This document shows, piece by piece, positions 1-52,490 of a stretch of DNA of 64,000 bases (within the stretch, counting starts at the first letter, position 1; the number at the start of each line of letters is the position of its first letter). The stretch spans positions 12,259,550 through 12,323,549 of the forward strand of contig CM044955.1 of assembly GCA_024516035.1 (NCBI GenBank), written 5' to 3'. Both the position numbers and the translations under genes were made by a program. Source of the DNA: Bactericera cockerelli (Eukaryota; Arthropoda; Insecta; Hemiptera; Triozidae). A model generated the notes under the pieces. That model made no database searches. It had not been told where the DNA came from and saw only the letters and a list, made by a program, of their open reading frames with translations.

Positions 1-645
1 CAGACTATTAAAATTAAGAAATAATTAATTATAGCGGGATATCCAGCATTGCTCATACACATACATGCAAAATTGCAAGCAAATAGACTCGACAAAATTT
101 CAAATACAATGCATATCGGTTTATGTTTATTAGTCCAGAAAGCATCATGTTGTAAGTTCTATCAAAAATACGTATTATTAAGTGCGAATATCTACATTGG
201 GGAATTGAATAAATTGAATAATATTTTTATAACATTTAACGATTACGAACGTTGAAAAGGTGAACAAAAAAAAAAACTGTCAGACATCATGATTTAAATA
301 TCAAATATTCGCCACTGAAGTCTCAGAACAAGAGTACTACCTGGTAATAAAAATATTAAAAATATATCCTCTAATAAAAAGTGATTTTCTTAGAATGCAA
401 GTTTTGATGTATTGAAGAAATTTCTTTCCAATCTCGAAGGAATAAATTGGAATTTTTAATTAATATTTTTTTATCGACTGTTCTTGATGATGGATGGTAC
501 AGCCACTACAATCATGTTGAGGAATTGAAGTCTATTTAATTGATAGGCGTTTGAAGTCACATGAGACTTGCAGACTGAGAGTATTGAATGCAGATTCCTC
601 ACTTATTAATAATCCATGCACTAAACGAAAGTATAAATGATAAGA
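1..645. other. AT-rich DNA, nothing assigned
   Basis: I see no coding pattern, repeat head or splice-like structure here. The only open frame is about 68 codons and looks random in AT-rich sequence. Confidence 0.5.
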
Positions 646-787
646 TGAACGATTGATCAGTGGTTAAGCACTCGCTTGCCATGCGGAAGGTGCCGGGTTC
701 GAACCCCCGTGCCGACAAAAATTTGTATTCAAAACTTGGTTACAGTTGTTTGTAAGGCATTAACCCAGCACCTAAATGGGAAGTATT
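646..787 (+). mobile_element. SINE family B, 5' half (split by DIRS element)
   Basis: A tRNA-like head (box A around CAGTGGTTAAGC, box B GGGTTCGAACCCC, a TTGCCAT anticodon-like loop) is followed by the family body ending in GCACCTAAATGGGAAGTATT. The sequence then breaks off exactly where the DIRS-like element starts. The missing 3' half resumes at 7244. Other copies at 9262-9572 and 30302-30600 show the uninterrupted order, so the break is an insertion and not a truncation. Confidence 0.88.
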
Positions 788-804
788 TTGGGGTCTATGC
801 TACA

Positions 805-965
805 GCTTGACCCAATGAGATTACGCTTTGGTCTTTTGATCTAGTAACTGTGCAAACGCGCCTTAACTTTCTCCCTTTTCCGTAGATTTCCCCTCTTTTC
901 TCCAACAGTGCTGCTCCTAGCGGAGGAGCTTTTGATTATGACTAGAAAGCTTCTGAACTTCAGTA
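805..965 (+). repeat. DIRS left inverted terminal repeat
   Basis: The reverse complement of this 161-base segment reads identically, base for base, at 7031-7191. The 17 bases outside it (788-804) are unique to the left end. Confidence 0.95.
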
Positions 966-1189
966 CTCTTTTGATCTTTGACCTAGTAACAACAATTTAT
1001 TGTGCAAAATATTTTGTCTTTATATGGTGAAAGTTAATCAATTTGCGGTCCGTTTCCGAGCCGTGTCCATATATTTTCAAGTGACATTTTGATAAGTTCC
1101 AGTCCGTCTTCGCGCCGTGTGTTATATTTCAGCGCTACAGAAATCAGGGTAAGATCTTTCCTGATTTTTCATCCTGGGCTCATGAGTTT

Positions 1190-2990
1190 TGAGTTCCTTG
1201 TGCCTCGGTACAAGTCGAGCCGTTACTCAAGATTTTGAGCCGGGGAGTTGACTTTGTCCTCCTTCTTTGGCGGGTGCGTCTCCCCTGACCCCCGGCCTAT
1301 CTCCTGGTACCTATGCCTTTGGTACCAGTCGAGCCGTTGCTCAAGATTTTGAGCCGTGGAGTTGACATTGTCCTCCCTCTTTGGCGGGTGCGTCTCCCCT
1401 GACCCCCGGCCTATTTCCTGGTACCTATGCCTTTGGTACCAGTCGAGCCGTTGCTCAAGATTTGAGCCGTGGAGTTGACATTGTCCTCCCTCTTTGGCGG
1501 GTGCGTCTCCCCTGACCCCCCGGCCTATCTCCTGGTACCTATGCCTTTGGTACCAGTCGAGCCGTTGCTCAAGATTTTGAGCCGTGGAGTTGACTTTGTC
1601 CTCCTTCTTTGGCGGGTGCGTCTCCCCTGACCCCCGGCCTGTCTCCTGGTACCTACGCCTTTGGTACCAGTCGAGCCGTTGCTCAAGATTTGAGCCGTGG
1701 AGTTGACATTGTCCTCCCTCTTTGGCGGGTGCGTCTCCCCTGACCCCCGGCCTATCTCCTGGTACCTATGCCTTTGGTACCAGTCGAGCCGTTGCTCAAG
1801 ATTTTGAGCCGTGGAGTTGACTTTGTCCTCCTTCTTTGGCGGGTGCGTCTCCCCTGACCCCCGGCCTATCTCCTGGTACCTATGCCTTTGGTACCAGTCG
1901 AGCCGTTGCTCAAGATTTTGAGCCGTGGAGTTGACTTTGTCCTCCCTCTTTGGCGGGTGCGTCTCTCCAGACCCCCAGCCTGTCTCCTGGTACCTATGGC
2001 TTTGGTACCAGTCGAGCCGTTGCTAAAGATTTGATCCGTGGAGTTGCGAGCCGTTGCTGAAGATTTGATCCGTGGAGTTACGAGCGTTGCTGAAGATTTG
2101 ATCCGTGGAGTTGCGAGCCGTTGCTGAAGATTTGATCCGTGGAGTTGACTTTTCCTCCCTCTTTGGCGGGTGCGTCACCTTAGACCCCCGGCCTGTCTCC
2201 CGGTACCTATGCCTTTGGTTCCAGTCGAGCCGTTGCTCAAGATTTTGAGCCATGGACTGGACTTTGTCCTCCCCATTTGCGGGTGCGTCTGCCTAGACCC
2301 CCGGCCTTTCTCCTGGTTCCTATGCCTTCGATACAAGTTGAGACGTGGACTAGGTCCTGCCCCTCCTTGGCTTGGCTTGGGTGCGTCTCCCTAGACCCCT
2401 TGCCTGTCTCCTGGTACCTATGCCCCTGGTACCAGTCGAGCCGTCACTCAATATTTTGAGCCGTGGACTGGACCTTGTCCCTTTTTGCGGGTGCGGTCTC
2501 CCTAGACCCCTTCCCTGTCTTTTTGTACCTATGCCATCGGTAGATGTTGCGTAGTTGCTCAAGATTTTGAGCCGTGTGCTGGACTCTGTACCTCCTTGGT
2601 TTGGGTGCGTCTCTTTAGACCCCTTGCCTGTTTCCTGGGGCCTAGGCCCTTGGTACCACTCGAGCCGTTGGTCAAAATATTGAGCCGTGGGCTGAACTCG
2701 GTCCTTAATTGGTTCGGGTGCGTCTCCTCAGACCCCTTGCCCGTCTCCTGATGCCTAAACCCCTGGAATCATTCGAGCCGTTTCTCAGATTTTTGATCCG
2801 TGGGCTGGACTCTTTCCCTCCTTTGCTTAGGTGCGTCTCTCTAGACCCCTTGCCTATCTCCTGGTACCTATACCTTTGGAACCAGTCGAGCCGTTGCTCA
2901 GGATTTGAGCCGTGAAGTGATTCTTCGTCTGCCTTTTGCTTGGGCGCGTCTCCCTGATCCCCTTCTCCTTTCTGGTCGAGCCCTGCTTCG
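1190..2990 (+). repeat. ~114-bp tandem array inside the DIRS element
   Basis: About 15 head-to-tail units of 112-115 bp. They are marked by GAGCCGTTGCTCAAGATTT, a GTGCGTCTCCC segment and CCTGGTACC...GGTACCAG. Units from about 1200 to 2020 are nearly identical; those from 2160 to 2990 are increasingly diverged. At 2030-2150 a shorter ~37-bp sub-repeat (TTGCGAGCCGTTGCTGAAG core) has expanded about fourfold. Each good unit holds an 8-bp perfect stem, CTGGTACC/GGTACCAG, around a 9-base loop. The unit length is close to 38 codons, but 1-2 base length changes between units break any long frame, so I do not call it coding. Confidence 0.9.
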
Positions 2991-3093
2991 GATATTGCAT
3001 CGTTGCTCAATAATTTAAGCCGTTCAAGAGATAAAATACTGCCAATACTCACTGTTTGCCTAGTATTCTTGTCAGATGGCTACGGCAACATCT

Positions 3094-3308
3094 TTATAAT
3101 AATACTCTTTAGTGGAAGTTATCCACCAGGCGAGGTTAATGCTCAAAGCATTTTCTGCCACCTAACCCTCAGAGTCTTATTATTATGTGGTCACAATCTC
3201 AAATTAATGAGGAAAAATTCATGCACTGAGTGGGATTCGAACCAACGGATCCCTACGCTAACTGGATTACCAGACTAGCGCGTTATCCACTTGACTACCA
3301 ATGCTCGG
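3094..3308 (-). mobile_element. SINE family D, near full length
   Basis: Read on the minus strand it begins with a tRNA-like head (GGTAGTCAAGTGGATAACGC as box A, GGTTCGAATCCC as box B). A body with TTATTATGTGGTCACAA in plus-strand reading follows, ending in an (ATT)n-like tail. Related truncated copies lie at 18001-18162 and 30133-30218. It sits between the tandem array and the Gag frame of the DIRS element. Confidence 0.8.
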
Positions 3309-3310
3309 TA

Positions 3311-4701
3311 GTCTTTGGGAGCCCTCTGTGACCTGCCGTCTGACAATGACGTCCTGTCTCGCCTGAAGCAAGCGGCAAAGAAGTTTCTACCTGATGGCTG
3401 GAGCGATTGGACGCTGATCAACTCGATCGACTTAGGCTTTAAAGTAGATGCAACAGTCCTTAACAAGCTTCGGTTCGCCCTCCCCACGCTGAATATAGTT
3501 CGGGCCTTTGATCCAAGTGCGTCAGTCTTGAAGGAATACCACTATAGGAATATGAAAAAGCAGATCCGTGGATCATCGCAGTCACACGATATCATGGCTC
3601 AGGCTGTAGCTCCCCTGAATTCGGAGCTCATTTCTCGTGAAGCAGCGGACATAATCCTGGTTGGAAATGTTTCCATACCAGTCTCCAGATAATCGTCCCT
3701 GTCAACAGAGTCTCCGGAAGATTCTGGGACACAAAAAACTCTTGACAAACGCTTCCAAGTACAAGAGGACAGGCTGATGGGAAGGATGAATGACGCCATG
3801 AATTTTCTCTTCACCAGGCTCCGGCCGACTCATATTCAACCGATCGTCCAGAACGATGAGTTGTCGGCGTCTGACCCTTCGGAAGCCTCGGATTCTGTGT
3901 GTGACTATTCTCTCCCGGAAGCTCGTCCCCTGTATGGCGAGCACGAGGAAGTTATAGCGACTCCAGACCTTCCGTTCGATTTTACCCCCTGCGTAAAAGA
4001 ATGTGAGCCGGATGTTCCTCTTCCATCTCCTGAAGCCGAAATAAATGGCCGCAAATGTCAGAATCTCAATTCTACAAGTTGGAACAGCATTAGATACATA
4101 GTATCTTCGCTTATGGTATCTTTGCTCGTCTGCAGCCAAATTCGGAACTGAAGGCCCAGCGGAACTAAAGTGCATGAGCGGATCTCCTGGCTAATATGGA
4201 CGGAGCTTTTGGGATATTATCCCACGGCCTAATTCTCCAACGTCCTGCACTGCAGACTCCTCGAACCAGATCGTTGCGGCACATCCATCTGTGAAGTCGT
4301 TGAAGAACGACCTGATAAAAGAACTGACCTCGGAAGATTCTGCTTTTAAGAAGACTTCCGATAGTCTTCTTTAGTTCGTAAGCGGAAAGAGATCCCAAAC
4401 TATTGCCAGTCGGAGAAGCCAGTTCGTACCAGCGATTTAGGTCCCGCGTCGGATTCTGAAGGATATTCCTCCTTCGGAAGACTAATTGTTTGAGCCCAAG
4501 GCCTTACTCGAAGCTGTGAAATCACACTCCTCTTCTTCTCAACCTCGCCCACGACCTCAGAGAAGCCGCACTACGAGGATACTTGTCCCCCGATCTCAAC
4601 ACCCTCACCGCAACTCGGGTATCACAAGGAAAAGAGATTTGGGTGTGAGAGGTCTTCAACCTGAAAACTTAGTCGGCGACTCCCAAGATCCAAACCCCTA
4701 A
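3311..4701 (+). pseudogene. DIRS Gag-like remnant
   Basis: Gag of DIRS elements is the putative nucleocapsid/particle protein. The first frame (about 3315-3692) reads SDNDVLSRLKQAAKKFLPDG and continues to ISREAADIILVGN. A second frame (about 3715-4151) has a short amphipathic stretch DKRFQVQEDRLMGRMNDAMN, then DLPFDFTPCVKECEPDVPLP and a STSWNSIRY block that I recall from Gag regions of other animal DIRS-like elements. Further pieces (ADLLANMDGAFGILSHGLIL near 4190) lie in other frames. A Ser/Arg-rich tail follows at 4486-4701. At least two frameshifts and several stops separate these pieces. The family call is by memory of motifs, not by search. Confidence 0.65.
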
Positions 4702-4739
4702 TGTTGTGTCAAATTCCTTCGATGGTCCTATCTCGATTC

Positions 4740-5345
4740 GTCGGTAGATCTCAACGCTTCATCTTCCACTTCCAATTTTTCATCGTCCACCTCAAGTGTT
4801 TGTGACGAACGTCGCATCTTCCAGTGGATGGGGAGTGATGAAGGCAATCAAATGGCCAAGATTCTTGGAGAAGGAGCCAAAAAGAGTGGCATATCAATGT
4901 CAAAGAGCTCTTCGCAGTGCAGATGTCCTTTGAAACACATTTGGAATATTTTCAGAACAAAGTGGTTCTTGTTCACAGACAATGCAACGGTAGTGGCTTA
5001 CATACGATAGGAGAGTAGAGAAAATCTACGGGATAGCGTCAGTCAATATTGTTCTCTGAGCAGAGTACATCCCACAGATGTACAACATCGCAGACAGTCT
5101 ATTTCGCTCAAATCTAATTCCCGAATGGCACCTTCTCCTCCAGCTAACAGCACCTATATTTCGGGTCTGGGGAAAACCGGTCATAGACCTCTTTGCGTCA
5201 GCAAAGTCGGCAGTCGTTCCGTGTTACGTTTCTCGCTCAGCTCGAGATGTTCAAGCAAGGTCTCTGAAGAAGGCATCCTTTTCAGAGAATGGAACTTCCC
5301 GCTAGCATGGGTATTCCTACCCCTCCCCTGCTTCCTCGAGTCCTG
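4740..5345 (+). pseudogene. DIRS RNase H remnant (RT palm not seen)
   Basis: Around 4805-5010, in shifting frames, I read SSGWGVMKA (the usual DASxxGWGA block with its first Asp lost), WHINVKELFAVQMSFETHLE and DNATVVAYIR. At 5078-5305 I read MYNIADSLFRSNLIPEWHLL and VIDLFASAKSAVVPCYVS. Together these match the linear order of the RNase H domain and the following IDLFAS linker in DIRS/Ngaro-type polyproteins. Several stops and frame changes interrupt it. No YxDD-type palm was found in the ~700 bases upstream. I infer an internal deletion, so this copy cannot supply its own reverse transcriptase. Confidence 0.65.
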
Positions 5346-6740
5346 AACCACCTGAACTCAGCTTATGGCGCATTTATCATAATTGCTCAGTCCTGGGAAA
5401 ACGCGGTCTGGCGCCCAGATCTGCTGAGGAGAGCAGTTTGCTAACCCATCACTCTGAAGGATCTAAACGAGTGCCTAGTAGACCTGTCCACAGGAAAAGT
5501 TAAACCTACAAGGTCCCTTGGGAAAGGTGGCTCTCATGGTCGTCAGCTAAGAATGTTTCTCGAAACAATCTTTCCCCCAGGAAGTCGCAAGATTTTTGAG
5601 CATTCTTCACTCTGAAAACTTTGCGTACAGTATAATTCTCGTTCACAAATCGGTTGTGTCAACCTTTGCGGACCCCTGTGTTAACCTAGGGTGTGTCAAC
5701 CTAGACACACAGAGATATGTTACCGCCCAATCGTACAACACGTACTAAAACCTTTGAGTTTGAAGGTGGCCCCTAATTATTTATTATTTTAGACCGGTTG
5801 GAGTTCCACAAGGGAAGCACCAATTAATTATCACACCGGCCTCTATTTAGATCTATTGTGAACAATGATTCTAATTCTGATGTACGTCCTGATTTGACGT
5901 AGTCAAGACGGGGGTTTTACCCTCCATTCGCTGGGAATCGTACCAGCTTCCCGCATTAACCTCACCCAGCCTGGGTAGGGCCGGAAATGCCATCAGCCTC
6001 ACGTGTTTGGAGGGAACAGAAGTTTCGTCGAAGTCTGCCCCAACCGGCAATCAAACTCGGGATCTCTGGACTGTGGGCAGTGGTTATAGCCACGGAGGTG
6101 GCCCCTAAATCTAGAGAGATTTGGAATATTGAAACTCTCTCTTCCTGGATGACTAACCACCTACCAAACACGAGTAAACTCAACTTTTCGAAGTATGTCG
6201 CCATGTGGCGCTTGTCCTCCTGTTACCTTCTGCAAGAAGGGTTCACGATTTGACTCTCCTGCGCTCCTCTCAGGATCTCTTCCAAGACCAAGGAGACGAG
6301 ATGGTTTTTGGCCAGCTTTTGGTTCTAAATCAGATTTCGCCTCCCACGTACTGTCTGGCTGGCTGCTTAAAAAGAATAACTCAGATCCCAACGTTGATCC
6401 CGTCTCTTGGATTTGAAAACTAATCGAGTTATCTGGTAACCGCTCTAAGTCCAAGTCTTGCGATTCTCTCTTTATCACTATACGTGGACGAGTAAACCCT
6501 GCTTCTAGATTTGTAATCGCAGGGTGGTTCAGCCCTGCGTGGAGCAGGTATAAATGCTTCGGCCGGGTCTTTTAGGTCTGCGGTGGGGACCTCACGAATG
6601 AATTCTGAGTTTTCTTTGGACTCTATTCTGAAAATAGGAGACTGGAAGAGTGATAGAACCTTCCATAGGCACTATTTGAGGCCGATAGCTAAGACACCGC
6701 AAAGGTGTCCAGATATCTCCACCACATGCTTCGAGGCTGT
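5346..6740 (+). pseudogene. DIRS tyrosine-recombinase remnant
   Basis: Tyrosine recombinases of DIRS elements integrate the circular DNA copy. Pieces of the catalytic domain are visible. ARRVHDLTLLRS at about 6232 carries the first Arg. GSKSDFASHVLSGWLLKKNN at about 6330 and DPVSWI follow. A block near 6490-6560 reads ASRFVIAGWFSPAWSR. SEFSLDSILKIGDWK with TFHRHYLRPI (Tyr codon 6673-6675) is the expected C-terminal His/Tyr region. The order is right but the pieces occupy different frames with stops between, and SINE A at 5777-6095 splits the N-terminal part. Clearly non-functional. Confidence 0.7.
5777..6095 (-). mobile_element. SINE family A, full length, inside DIRS element
   Basis: A minus-strand copy with its tRNA-like head at the right (CCTCCGTGGC in minus reading, T-arm GAGTTTGATTGCC) and its A-rich tail at the left (5777 onward in plus reading). 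It is flanked by a perfect 13-base duplication AGGTGGCCCCTAA at 5764-5776 and 6096-6108, which fixes the insertion exactly and shows it came after the DIRS element. Confidence 0.9.
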
Positions 6741-6903
6741 GTAGAACAGCTTATTTCAAGTGTACTATCTATTAATTGGATAAAGACAAAACATTATTTA
6801 AGATACACGTAAAGACTATACGATCTTTGTTTTGTTCCTGTTATATTCCGCATACTCTTCTTTTCTCACAGTACTCTGCTCCAACCGGCAGAATGAAAAC
6901 ACA

Positions 6904-7001
6904 TCTCATTGGGTCAAGCTGTAGCATAGACCCCAAAATATTAAAGTTTTTCCCCCGTAGGGTAAAAAACTATTATTTTGGGTCTTGCGTAAGCTTGACC
7001 C
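6904..7001 (+). repeat. DIRS internal complementary region (ICR)
   Basis: Positions 6904-6940 are the exact reverse complement of the left edge (784-820). Positions 6937-6999 are the exact reverse complement of the right edge (7185-7247). The two overlap by four bases, so the region is the joined circle junction in inverted orientation. In DIRS models such a region serves as the splint for closing the circular intermediate. Confidence 0.93.
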
Positions 7002-7030
7002 AGCTAAAAGCTCTTGCCTCTGGCAAAAGA

Positions 7031-7191
7031 TACTGAAGTTCAGAAGCTTTCTAGTCATAATCAAAAGCTCCTCCGCTAGGAGCAGCACTGTTGGAGAAAA
7101 GAGGGGAAATCTACGGAAAAGGGAGAAAGTTAAGGCGCGTTTGCACAGTTACTAGATCAAAAGACCAAAGCGTAATCTCATTGGGTCAAGC
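7031..7191 (-). repeat. DIRS right inverted terminal repeat
   Basis: Exact reverse complement of 805-965. The 52 bases beyond it (7192-7243), rich in A/T plus CCCTACGGGGG, are the unique right extension and recur inverted in the ICR. Confidence 0.95.
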
Positions 7192-7243
7192 TTACGCAAG
7201 ACCCAAAATAATAGTTTTTTACCCTACGGGGGAAAAACTTTAA

Positions 7244-7400
7244 TATTGTGTCACTTCTCGCCCATCAGAGGGGAGGCATACTACGGGATGGGCAGGCTAC
7301 AACACAGACCATAAGCGTCTACAGTAGCTCCTGTTTCATGGCTATGAAATAAAAACGGCTGTGAAACACTCATCCCTAAAAAAAAAAATACTCTCTGGTT
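7244..7400 (+). mobile_element. SINE family B, 3' half
   Basis: Starts TATTGTGTCACTTCTCGCCC, exactly where the 5' half stopped at 787. It runs through the conserved body (CTGTTTCATGGCTA, GGCTGTGAAACACTCATC) to an A-rich end near 7392. Confidence 0.9.
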
Positions 7401-18000: not shown

Positions 18001-18162
18001 TAATAATAATAACACTCTTTAGTGGAAGGTAACCACCGGGCGAGGTTAATGCTAAAAGCATTTTCTACCACCTAACCCTCAGAGTCTTATTATTATGTGG
18101 TCACAAACTCAAATTAATGAGGAAAATTTCATGCACTGGGTGGGATTCGAACCAACGGATTA
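18001..18162 (-). mobile_element. SINE family D, head truncated
   Basis: Matches 3094-3250 from the ATAATAATAACACTCTTTAG tail through GTGGGATTCGAACCAACGGAT, and then stops. The outer part of the tRNA-like head is missing. Confidence 0.8.
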
Positions 18163-19017: not shown

Positions 19018-19195
19018 GGATTGTTACACTACATTCGCAGGAAACTCACAAACCTGCTATCCACATTAATCTCACCCAGCATTAACCTTGGGTCGGAATA
19101 CCAGAATCACGATGTCTTCACCTCGCTGGACATTGCTTAACTTCGGTGATCTAACGAGAACCGGTGCATTCAACGCGTCATCGACGCTGTGGCAA
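19018..19195 (-). mobile_element. SINE family G, 3' end missing
   Basis: Shares ACATTCGCAGGAAACTCACA, the CTCACCCAGC segment, CCTCGCTGGACATTGCTTAA and CATCGACGCTG with the longer copy at 52231-52490. The CGACGTTAAACCCCA tail is absent. Confidence 0.75.
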
Positions 19196-30132: not shown

Positions 30133-30218
30133 AGTAATAATAATAATAACACTCTTTAGTGGAAGGTAACCATCAGGCGAGGTGAATGCTCAAAGCATTT
30201 TCTACCACCTAACCCTCA
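30133..30218 (-). mobile_element. SINE family D, 3' portion
   Basis: From the (ATA)n tail and CACTCTTTAGTGGAAGGTAA to CCACCTAACCCTCAGA. It abuts the tandem array that has amplified its tail. Confidence 0.75.
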
Positions 30219-30301
30219 GACCACCTAACGAAGTACTACTTGAGTATCAAATATATTCTGCTGACCAAGTTTCAAAACAACACAACACCGTAACAATTAG
30301 A

Positions 30302-30600
30302 GCGTGCGATTAGCTCAGTGGTTAAGCACTCGCTTGCCATGCGGAATGTCCCGGGTTCGATCCCCCGTGCCGACAAAAATTTGTATTCGTAATTTGGTTA
30401 CAATTGTTTGTAAGGGATACCTTGCGGTGCGCTCGTGTTGACCCAGCACCTAATTAGTAAGTATTGTGTCACTTCTCGCTCATCAGAGGGGAGTCATGGG
30501 TAGGGTAGGCTACAACACAGACCACAAGCGTCTGCAGTAGCTCCTGTTTCATGGCTACGAAATAAAAACGGCTGTGAAACACTCATCTTTAAAAAAAAAA
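30302..30600 (+). mobile_element. SINE family B, full length
   Basis: Head GTGCGATTAGCTCAGTGGTT with box B GGGTTCGATCCCC and a TTGCCAT anticodon-like loop (Gly-GCC-like), the body TTGTGTCACTTCTCGC, and the end GAAACACTCATCTT followed by A(12). Confidence 0.9.
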
Positions 30601-31872
30601 AATCTTCTGCAGGGACATAAACGAACATGAAAACCCTTTTCAAAGGACATAAGGGATCACAAGAATCCTTCTGAAGGGACCTGTAGGAATCTATGTGTGG
30701 AGTTTTCACTTGAGTAGCACGGGAAAGGAAAAATAAGCAACCTCTACCTATTTCAGGAAGCGAATAAATTTATTGTAAAAAAATCGAGTTTTTTTCTTCT
30801 TTTATAATTTTTTAATAAATATGAAATGATGTAGAAAATAATATTACTGGGATTTTTGTATAAAACGTGAAGTAGGAAAAAAAATTAAAGTTTCCTTGGA
30901 GGCATATGAAAGTATACATCCATTTTAATGTTGTTATATACCTATGTATGTGGAAAACACAGGAGAAAGTACAAGGAGACAAGGGAGAGAAAGCTCTATC
31001 TCTCTCTCCTTCTAGAGGGAAAAATCACTCCGGTCTTTGCATGAAATGTATAAATGTGTAGGGTGTATCAAACAATGCTTTGCATGAAATCATATTAGAT
31101 ACAGGGTGTTTGTGATAATTTCTAAATATAATAAAAATAGATACAAGAGAGTCTGCCATCTACATAATATTATGTCGATCTAAGACCAAGTTGAAAAATG
31201 ATAGTGGCAAATTCAACAAATCCGAAGAAATATATTTTTTGTCAGACCGGGAATGGAATTAGCGGCAGCAGTTGAAATGCTATCCTCATAGTGATAGATC
31301 AGATGTAGGAATAGAAGAGGAGGAAGTAGGTTTCGAAAGACAAGGTAATATTGGGTTTAGAAATAGTGATGTTCAGAAAACAAAAGTGTTCAGATCTGAG
31401 CCACCCTTAGAAAAGATTCAGCATAAGTGCTTTTCACTGAGAAGAAAGCTAGAGGGCAAAAGAAAAGAAGGGGTGAGACGTATAGGTAGGAGGGGTGGCC
31501 CAAAGTTTATACAAATATGACAAAAGCGATCTTTAAATAAGTAATTTCACACTCCCTCATAATATTTATATTATTATATCTACATTTCCTGAGGCTTTGT
31601 CACTCGAGCAGTTGTTTATTTTCGATTAAGTTGATTTCACATTTCTTGAGTGTGACGAGAAGTAGCTTTTAGAAATATTATCCCTCGCAACCCCGTCTCG
31701 CTTTCTGATGTGACTTTCGTGTTTTTCACTTTATTTACTTTTTTAAAAAGCCGCTCAAAAGATGTGCAGCTCCAACTTTCAACCTACCCATAAAATCCCC
31801 ATGGTTCAGAGAATTTTTTTTTCTTCGTTAAATGCAGCTAATTTGATAACATCAACATATTGTTCGTGATGC

Positions 31873-51708: not shown

Positions 51709-51808
51709 NNNNNNNNNNNNNNNNNNNNNNNNNNNNNNNNNNNNNNNNNNNNNNNNNNNNNNNNNNNNNNNNNNNNNNNNNNNNNNNNNNNNNNNNNNNN
51801 NNNNNNNN
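51709..51808. other. Assembly gap, 100 N
   Basis: Exactly 100 N, a conventional placeholder, so the true distance is unknown. Confidence 0.99.
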
Positions 51809-52230: not shown

Positions 52231-52490
52231 TTTTTTTTTTTTGTGGGGTTTAACGTCGCTTTCAACTGCCATGGTCATATCACGACGGGGGTTTTACCCT
52301 CCATTCGCAGGAAACTCACAAACCTGCTACTCACATTGACCTCACCAGCTGAGTGGGGCCGGGAAAAGCCAGCGTCACGAGAATTAGAATTTGAATGGTC
52401 ACCATCCAAGTCTTAACCTCGCTGGATGTCGCTTAACTTCGTGTTCTGAAGGGAACCGGTGTATTCAACATGCCATCGACGCTGGCTTGA
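52231..52490 (-). mobile_element. SINE family G, longest copy
   Basis: T(14) at the left is the A tail in minus reading. Next come GTGGGGTTTAACGTCGCTTT, the core GGGGGTTTTACCCTCCATTC, then CTCGCTGGATGTCGCTTAAC and TGCCATCGACGCTGG. I could not identify a tRNA-like head, so the 5' end may be incomplete. Confidence 0.75.

Follow-up and report, generated by a model that had tools for sequence, protein, structure and literature searches.

The window, the 64,000-nucleotide stretch of DNA that we analysed, contains a DIRS1-like element at positions 784-7247 (6464 bp) that is inserted in a tRNA-type SINE (Table 1). Two uninterrupted copies of this host SINE lie elsewhere in the window, at 9557-9269 on the minus strand and at 30307-30601 on the plus strand, and in both of them the empty site reads AAG-TATT-GTGTC with a single TATT. 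Two partial SINE copies outside the window also have one TATT each (TATT-GTGTC in L015 and TATT-ATGTC in L027). Measured against the empty sites in the SINEs, the insertion shows no target duplication beyond the shared TATT. The first-pass annotation of this DNA had used the SINE as an empty-site reference, which the two intact copies justify, and had reported TATT at the target, at both edges and at the inferred circle junction; we find the motif at 784-787, at 7244-7247, in the SINE empty sites and once in the internal complementary region (ICR). With one TATT per about 87 bp of window sequence, the four shared bases alone are weak evidence. The perfect repeats of 162 bp and 100 bp, taken together with the empty site, are not due to chance.

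The inverted terminal repeats (ITRs) are in part identical and in part divergent. The identity reported earlier for the repeats is perfect, but it extends over 162 bp rather than 161 bp (804-965 and 7031-7192). The ICR corresponds to the reverse complement of the right end joined to the left end, with TATT counted once, and is composed of parts of 38 and 66 bp; the match is exact at 100 of 100 bp, as the first reading of the sequence had it. The same arrangement, an ICR complementary to the joined termini with an overlapping circular-junction motif, is found in other copies and in relatives of the element. Direct repeats outside the tandem array do not exceed 30 bp. Membership in the Ngaro, PAT or VIPER groups was considered and rejected, as split direct repeats are absent and the long terminal repeats are inverted.

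Table 1. Features of the DIRS1-like element and of the SINE that it interrupts (window positions).
Feature	Position	Strand	Evidence and remarks
Host SINE, left part, tRNA-type, ends in shared TATT core	641..787	+	Paralogs 9557-9269 and 30307-30601 uninterrupted across the site
Left core TATT	784..787	+	Left edges genome-wide, window included: TATT 22, AATT 2 (24 in all)
Left divergent ITR, 20 bp	784..803	+	Left terminus aligned with reverse complement of right terminus; naming after PMC3266345
Left conserved ITR, 162 bp	804..965	+	100% complementary to 7031-7192
Tandem repeat array, unit ~114 bp, between left ITR and gag	1207..2970	+	Length varies among copies
SINE1, tRNA-like passenger near gag start	3098..3309	-	Limits approximate, set by eye; tRNA match 3222-3304, minus strand; in 18 of 20 other copies
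gag relic	3312..4660	+	3312-3665 matches P0001 residues 9-150 (38% identity, E 2.7e-13); assigned by eye after 3665
RNase H, methyltransferase-like and recombinase N-terminal relics	4671..5771	+	Starts at P0003 residue 256; 9 frameshifts, 2 stops
SINE2 target duplication, 13 bp, left copy	5764..5776	+	Perfect match to right copy
SINE2, passenger within recombinase relic	5777..6095	-	In 20 of 20 other fetched copies
SINE2 target duplication, 13 bp, right copy	6096..6108	+	Perfect match to left copy
Tyrosine recombinase C-terminal relic	6104..6741	+	Alignment with P0003 crosses 3 frameshifts and 2 stops and has 126 identities in 207 residues; E 1.6e-28 to P0002
ICR, exact reverse complement of joined termini	6903..7002	-	100/100 bp
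Right conserved ITR, 162 bp	7031..7192	-	Complementary to 804-965, 162/162 bp
Right divergent ITR	7193..7210	-	Alignment of termini
Right extension, 37 bp, hairpin-forming, ends in TATT	7211..7247	+	Alignment of termini and folding; all 8 aligned terminal sequences retain the hairpin pairs
Right core TATT	7244..7247	+	28 right edges (window included): 24 TATT, 3 TAAT, 1 TAAA
Host SINE, right part	7248..7400	+	Comparison with uninterrupted SINE paralogs

Coding Relics and Passenger SINEs

The closest named protein comes from Diaphorina citri, with 41% identity over the searched frame. P0003 is a D. citri protein of 856 amino acids that has a Pfam match to reverse transcriptase (RT) above the curated cut-off and matches to RNase H and the integrase N-terminal domain below it; in P0002 the integrase N-terminal match lies above the curated cut-off. 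An RT counterpart is absent from the window: residues 1-255 of P0003 are unmatched and the match begins at residue 256, so that the RT has gone from the window element. The tyrosine recombinase expected of a DIRS1-like element is present as a broken relic, and the RT domain of an autonomous member is lacking; we therefore file the element only as a non-autonomous derivative. The RNase H relic was recognized through its homology to P0003 and has no Pfam match, and neither the Pfam search of the read-through frames nor the search of the RNase H region returned anything at threshold. Part of the relic at 4671-5771 we presume to be methyltransferase-like; this part is matched weakly. Searches of viral_contigs and genome_contigs with gag and the D. 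citri protein gave no confirmed relatives, and the search of phage DNA gave nothing useful. The boundary motif was found at five loci in viral_contigs, which we took as chance occurrences.

The coding part carries 17 lesions, of which 12 frameshifts and 4 stops come from a frameshift-aware alignment of 4671-5771 and 6104-6741, their number depending on the penalties of that alignment, and one is an in-frame stop in gag at 3690. The element had been described as complete with a decayed coding part. This description holds for the termini and for the heavy decay; however, the element is not coding-complete, as its RT is missing. Two additional SINEs lie inside it.

Several features of the window deserve mention in their own right. 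The first 800 bp of gag contain few lesions (one stop), which, post hoc, might hint at a mosaic origin. Long open frames run on the minus strand of the 114-bp array. Relatives of SINE1 are present at 18006-18160 and 30143-30220. At 52367-52486 and 19074-19191 stretches resembling 5S rRNA are followed by a SINE body related to SINE2, and these are probably 5S-derived SINEs. Positions 51709-51808 are an assembly gap of 100 N.

Other Copies in the Genome

The first-pass annotation had called for a genome search for further copies, and the outcome supports it. In 565 Mb on 1032 contigs, with the best candidates scored, we found at least 24 left-type ends, one right-type end that also matched the left query (contig C9), and at least 28 right ends, all at 95-100% identity and with the window included. 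The family comprises about thirty near-identical copies. The RT is missing at the same joint, where the gag relic is directly joined to the RNase H relic, in 20 of the 20 other copies that were fetched, and SINE2 is present in every one of these. The two copies in which SINE1 was not seen are L048, which is without that part, and L055, whose stretch begins after it. Both SINEs are passengers that were multiplied along with the element.

The 17 lesions were compared over 3090-6902 in 18 aligned copies, window included (L048, L053 and L055 were left out), sharing being judged by the length of the local stretch or, for stops, by the codon. Thirteen lesions are present in all 18 copies, three in 17 and one in 10. 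Among the same copies the mean pairwise substitution is 0.96% (range 0.24-1.50%, 153 pairs). Since the loss of the RT and all but one of the lesions are common to all or nearly all copies, which have diverged by only about 1%, the family was gene-dead before it spread. These observations support the earlier suggestion that the window holds a recent insertion of an already defective copy that was mobilised in trans.

A few copies have a history of their own. Only in L037 is the recombinase relic interrupted by a 5S-derived SINE with a poly-A end, which is a later insertion. On contig C9 (L030:1450-1800) a right-type terminus with its extension lies on the left side of the copy and is followed by left inner sequence; this copy looks as if its ITRs had recombined. 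On contig C14 (18568-29282) two right ends, about 3.8 kb from each other, have a flank in common, and part of a copy has probably been duplicated locally.

Core Sequence and Probable Crossover Point

Both edges could be read in 22 copies, seven of them paired by position only: 18 have TATT at both edges, two have AATT on the left with TATT on the right, and two have TATT on the left with TAAT on the right. The count of right edges in Table 1 includes the second end on C14, a probable duplicate with a shared flank, and the end on C9, which lies on the left side of its copy. Deviations from TATT affect base 1 only at left edges (two cases) and base 3 or 4 only at right edges (four cases). The six deviating edges are those of L036, the C14 copy, L048, L050, L052 and the C8 end. 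The ICRs of L036, L048, L050 and L052 retain TATT. In L050 the left edge is TATT and the right edge TAAT, and five of five empty paralogs (search with at most 2 mismatches and the core left free) read TAAT; thus the odd base at this right edge came from the target.

The crossover probably takes place between bases 1 and 3 of TATT. Such a position predicts deviations at base 1 on the left and at base 3 or 4 on the right, provided that the odd base is derived from the target. The upper limit, before base 3, is demonstrated by a single insertion, L050. The lower limit, after base 1, would follow from the two AATT-left insertions, L036 and the C14 copy, if their first base is derived from the target. 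The non-TATT bases could instead be mutations that arose after insertion, in keeping with the fact that just 4 of the 22 copies with both edges read deviate. We consider this improbable, as position-1 changes are confined to left edges (two) and position-3 or -4 changes to right edges (four), and for L050 the paralogs refute it. A relative with the same ICR layout, L073, has TAAT at its right edge and TATT in its ICR, as in L050.

Empty paralogs with one TATT were also recovered for L044 and for L041, in the latter with weak similarity over the 15 bp to the right of the core. Long target duplications, which the first-pass annotation had named as evidence against its interpretation, are not found: when the 60-bp flanks of the 15 copies readable at both ends are compared, direct matches reach 4-9 bp at most. 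L043 has an 8-bp match next to its edges, but it is situated in a TAT microsatellite, within which no judgement on a duplication is possible. The copy on C176 is located inside an array of 36-bp tandem units. The window element has a short shared integration sequence and no target duplication, and the target core of L050 is off by one base. The idea of a crossover by a tyrosine recombinase at a shared TATT core gains support from the other copies, with the amendment that L050, and probably other insertions, used a core one base off TATT.

Agreement of the Terminal Repeats Within Copies

In the 16 copies with both ends the two ITRs of the same copy differ by seven substitutions at 2592 sites (0.27%), and 12 of these copies have no ITR substitution at all, although one of the 12 (L044) has a small indel. 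Left and right ITRs compared between copies differ by 0.57% on average, and when the right ends were re-dealt among the copies none of 20,000 shuffles gave a total as low as that observed. ITRs that are more alike within than between copies suggest that one terminal repeat templates the other.

Individual variants illustrate the process. Variants present in both ITRs of a copy occur at 816 (L052), 867 (L051 and the C1:40.87 copy) and 913 (L045); 816C is also found in the left ITR of the C1:47.95 copy, the only ITR read there. At 816 the ICR of L052 retains the alternative base, an indication that repeat-to-repeat copying, and not the ICR, was the source at this position. One-sided ITR substitutions number seven in the 16 copies; 831T is confined to the left ITR in L042 and L043. 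L042, L043, L050 and L054 have single one-sided changes. The left-only 831T in two copies indicates that correction is incomplete in some cycles. Compared with the joined termini, the ICR carries 0-1 substitutions in each of 15 copies that have both ends (L043 also has a 1-base indel); an ICR that failed to match the termini would have spoken against the element's assignment at first reading, and none was found among these copies. A recent insertion of a dead copy and correction of the repeats had been offered as two explanations for decayed genes between identical repeats. Both are seen and they are not rivals, although correction is sometimes incomplete.

A single old insertion that decayed in place, with gene conversion keeping its inverted repeats alike, could also produce the three repeat variants on which both ITRs of a copy agree. 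However, the decay is common to copies at unrelated sites and so predates insertion, the right extension and the ICR agree as well as the long repeats do, and with an assumed 5% of decay in place one would expect 16 repeat differences where none is seen. We regard this explanation as very unlikely.

Relatives and Mode of Spread

A search of the genome with P0003 listed 68 matches (53 of 1370 candidates scored). Among those listed, 27 span approximately residues 1-465, the RT and RNase H part, without stops and in open frames of at least 508 residues. Relatives with open RT frames thus exist in this genome and are candidate helpers. In the stretch after the recombinase, the ICR is paired with the right end in 11 of 13 relatives; in the other two the pair is absent within the stretch read. 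With the window included there are about seven terminal types, six with TATT at the junction and one with AATT. The type nearest to the window shares 89% identity with it in the ICR and 95% over the outer 66 bp.

Given the missing RT and the recent spread, we infer mobilisation in trans, and the family was most likely moved by the enzymes of its relatives. Coding DIRS relatives would supply the proteins that reverse transcribe RNA of the RT-less family. With the ITRs and the ICR as templates, both ends would be restored and then joined into a circle; its junction would be the sequence that the ICR mirrors. A tyrosine recombinase from a relative would then cross the circle into a TATT-like host site without target duplication. 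We give a probability of roughly 0.9 to the interpretation of this element as a non-autonomous DIRS1-like retrotransposon from an RT-less family, spread by the proteins of relatives and inserted through recombinase crossover without target duplication.

Multiplication by duplication of host DNA, rather than by transposition, is suggested by the two right ends with the same flank on C14, and some copies are on short unplaced contigs that may be alternative haplotypes. Nevertheless, the listed flanks differ from copy to copy (C14 excepted) while the edges begin at the same core, and empty paralogs exist for four insertions, one of them (L041) weak on its right side; duplication is hence a highly improbable source of the family. 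We likewise dismiss an element lacking an RNA stage, be it a DNA transposon or a Crypton-like recombinase element: a tyrosine recombinase relic, inverted ends and an absent RT would fit it, but the RNase H relic stands in DIRS pol order, the ICR equals the joined ends, and in relatives ends of this kind are found downstream of matches to a DIRS protein that has an RT.

A Possible Hairpin at the Circle Junction

The sequence of the circle junction folds with -28.7 kcal/mol, compared to a mean of -13.2 and a lowest value of -24.2 in 500 shuffles. Of the hairpin pairs in the right extension, all of which are conserved (Table 1), one is changed on both sides in four of the eight terminal sequences. 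Another dyad lies across the inner boundary of the right divergent ITR. Two-sided changes occur in two of 18 hairpin pairs, and 60 of 500 shuffles reached this number. None of 500 shuffles reached the covariation score, yet after a slide of 2 columns the score was slightly higher (0.123 versus 0.119), and the rows of the alignment are related to one another. The evidence from covariation for the hairpins is weak, and a protein-binding dyad would look the same.

We put forward, as a tentative and rather doubtful idea, that the right extension is a conserved hairpin through which DIRS circle junctions in this genome acquire a long dyad, with the crossover core at the shoulder of the dyad. The hairpin might act as a structural site for the recombinase or as a point of self-priming for strand synthesis, and non-autonomous passengers might persist because they need only ITR, hairpin and ICR. 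In open-licence full text we found no paper on a DIRS hairpin or palindrome by title or start of abstract.

Comparison with Known Systems

TOC1 of Chlamydomonas is a non-autonomous recombinase retrotransposon, as is the window element, but it has split direct repeats and is not known to have ITRs with an ICR. P0003 of D. citri has RNase H and recombinase parts homologous to the relics in the window; its RT, however, has no counterpart there, and P0003 is known here as a protein and not from its termini. DIRS1-like elements as described by Piednoel et al. (2011, PMC3266345) have ITRs with conserved and divergent parts, a right extension, an ICR equal to the joined termini and no target duplication; their ends are NTT, and ATT is the commonest terminus in that description. 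The window element falls within the ranges of Table 3 of that paper for the divergent ITR (20 bp), the conserved ITR (162 bp), the extension (37 bp) and the ICR (38 + 66 bp). It differs from the elements described there in being without RT and in carrying two internal SINEs and the 114-bp array, and at 6464 bp it is longer than the longest element in the same table (6283). The word "non-autonomous" occurs 0 times in PMC3266345.

For DIRS-1 of Dictyostelium, a circular intermediate, the ICR as template and integration by the recombinase have been proposed; a 2017 review regards the experimental proof of this replication model as so far incomplete (PMC5633606). DIRS-1 as presented in this review has three ORFs of its own, whereas the window element has only relics. 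The architecture and the replication scheme are thus already proposed in the literature. What we add is an RT-less family that carries SINEs, its shared decay, and edge bases that bear on the crossover; open-licence full-text searches found no comparable RT-less family or crossover clue in print.

With about thirty dead copies of recent origin, the family serves as a natural experiment on DIRS replication. The pattern suggests three things: non-coding parts such as ITR, extension and ICR are enough in cis, one of the two repeats acts as the template of the other, and crossover takes place within the shared core. Surveys that rely on the RT could overlook families of this type.
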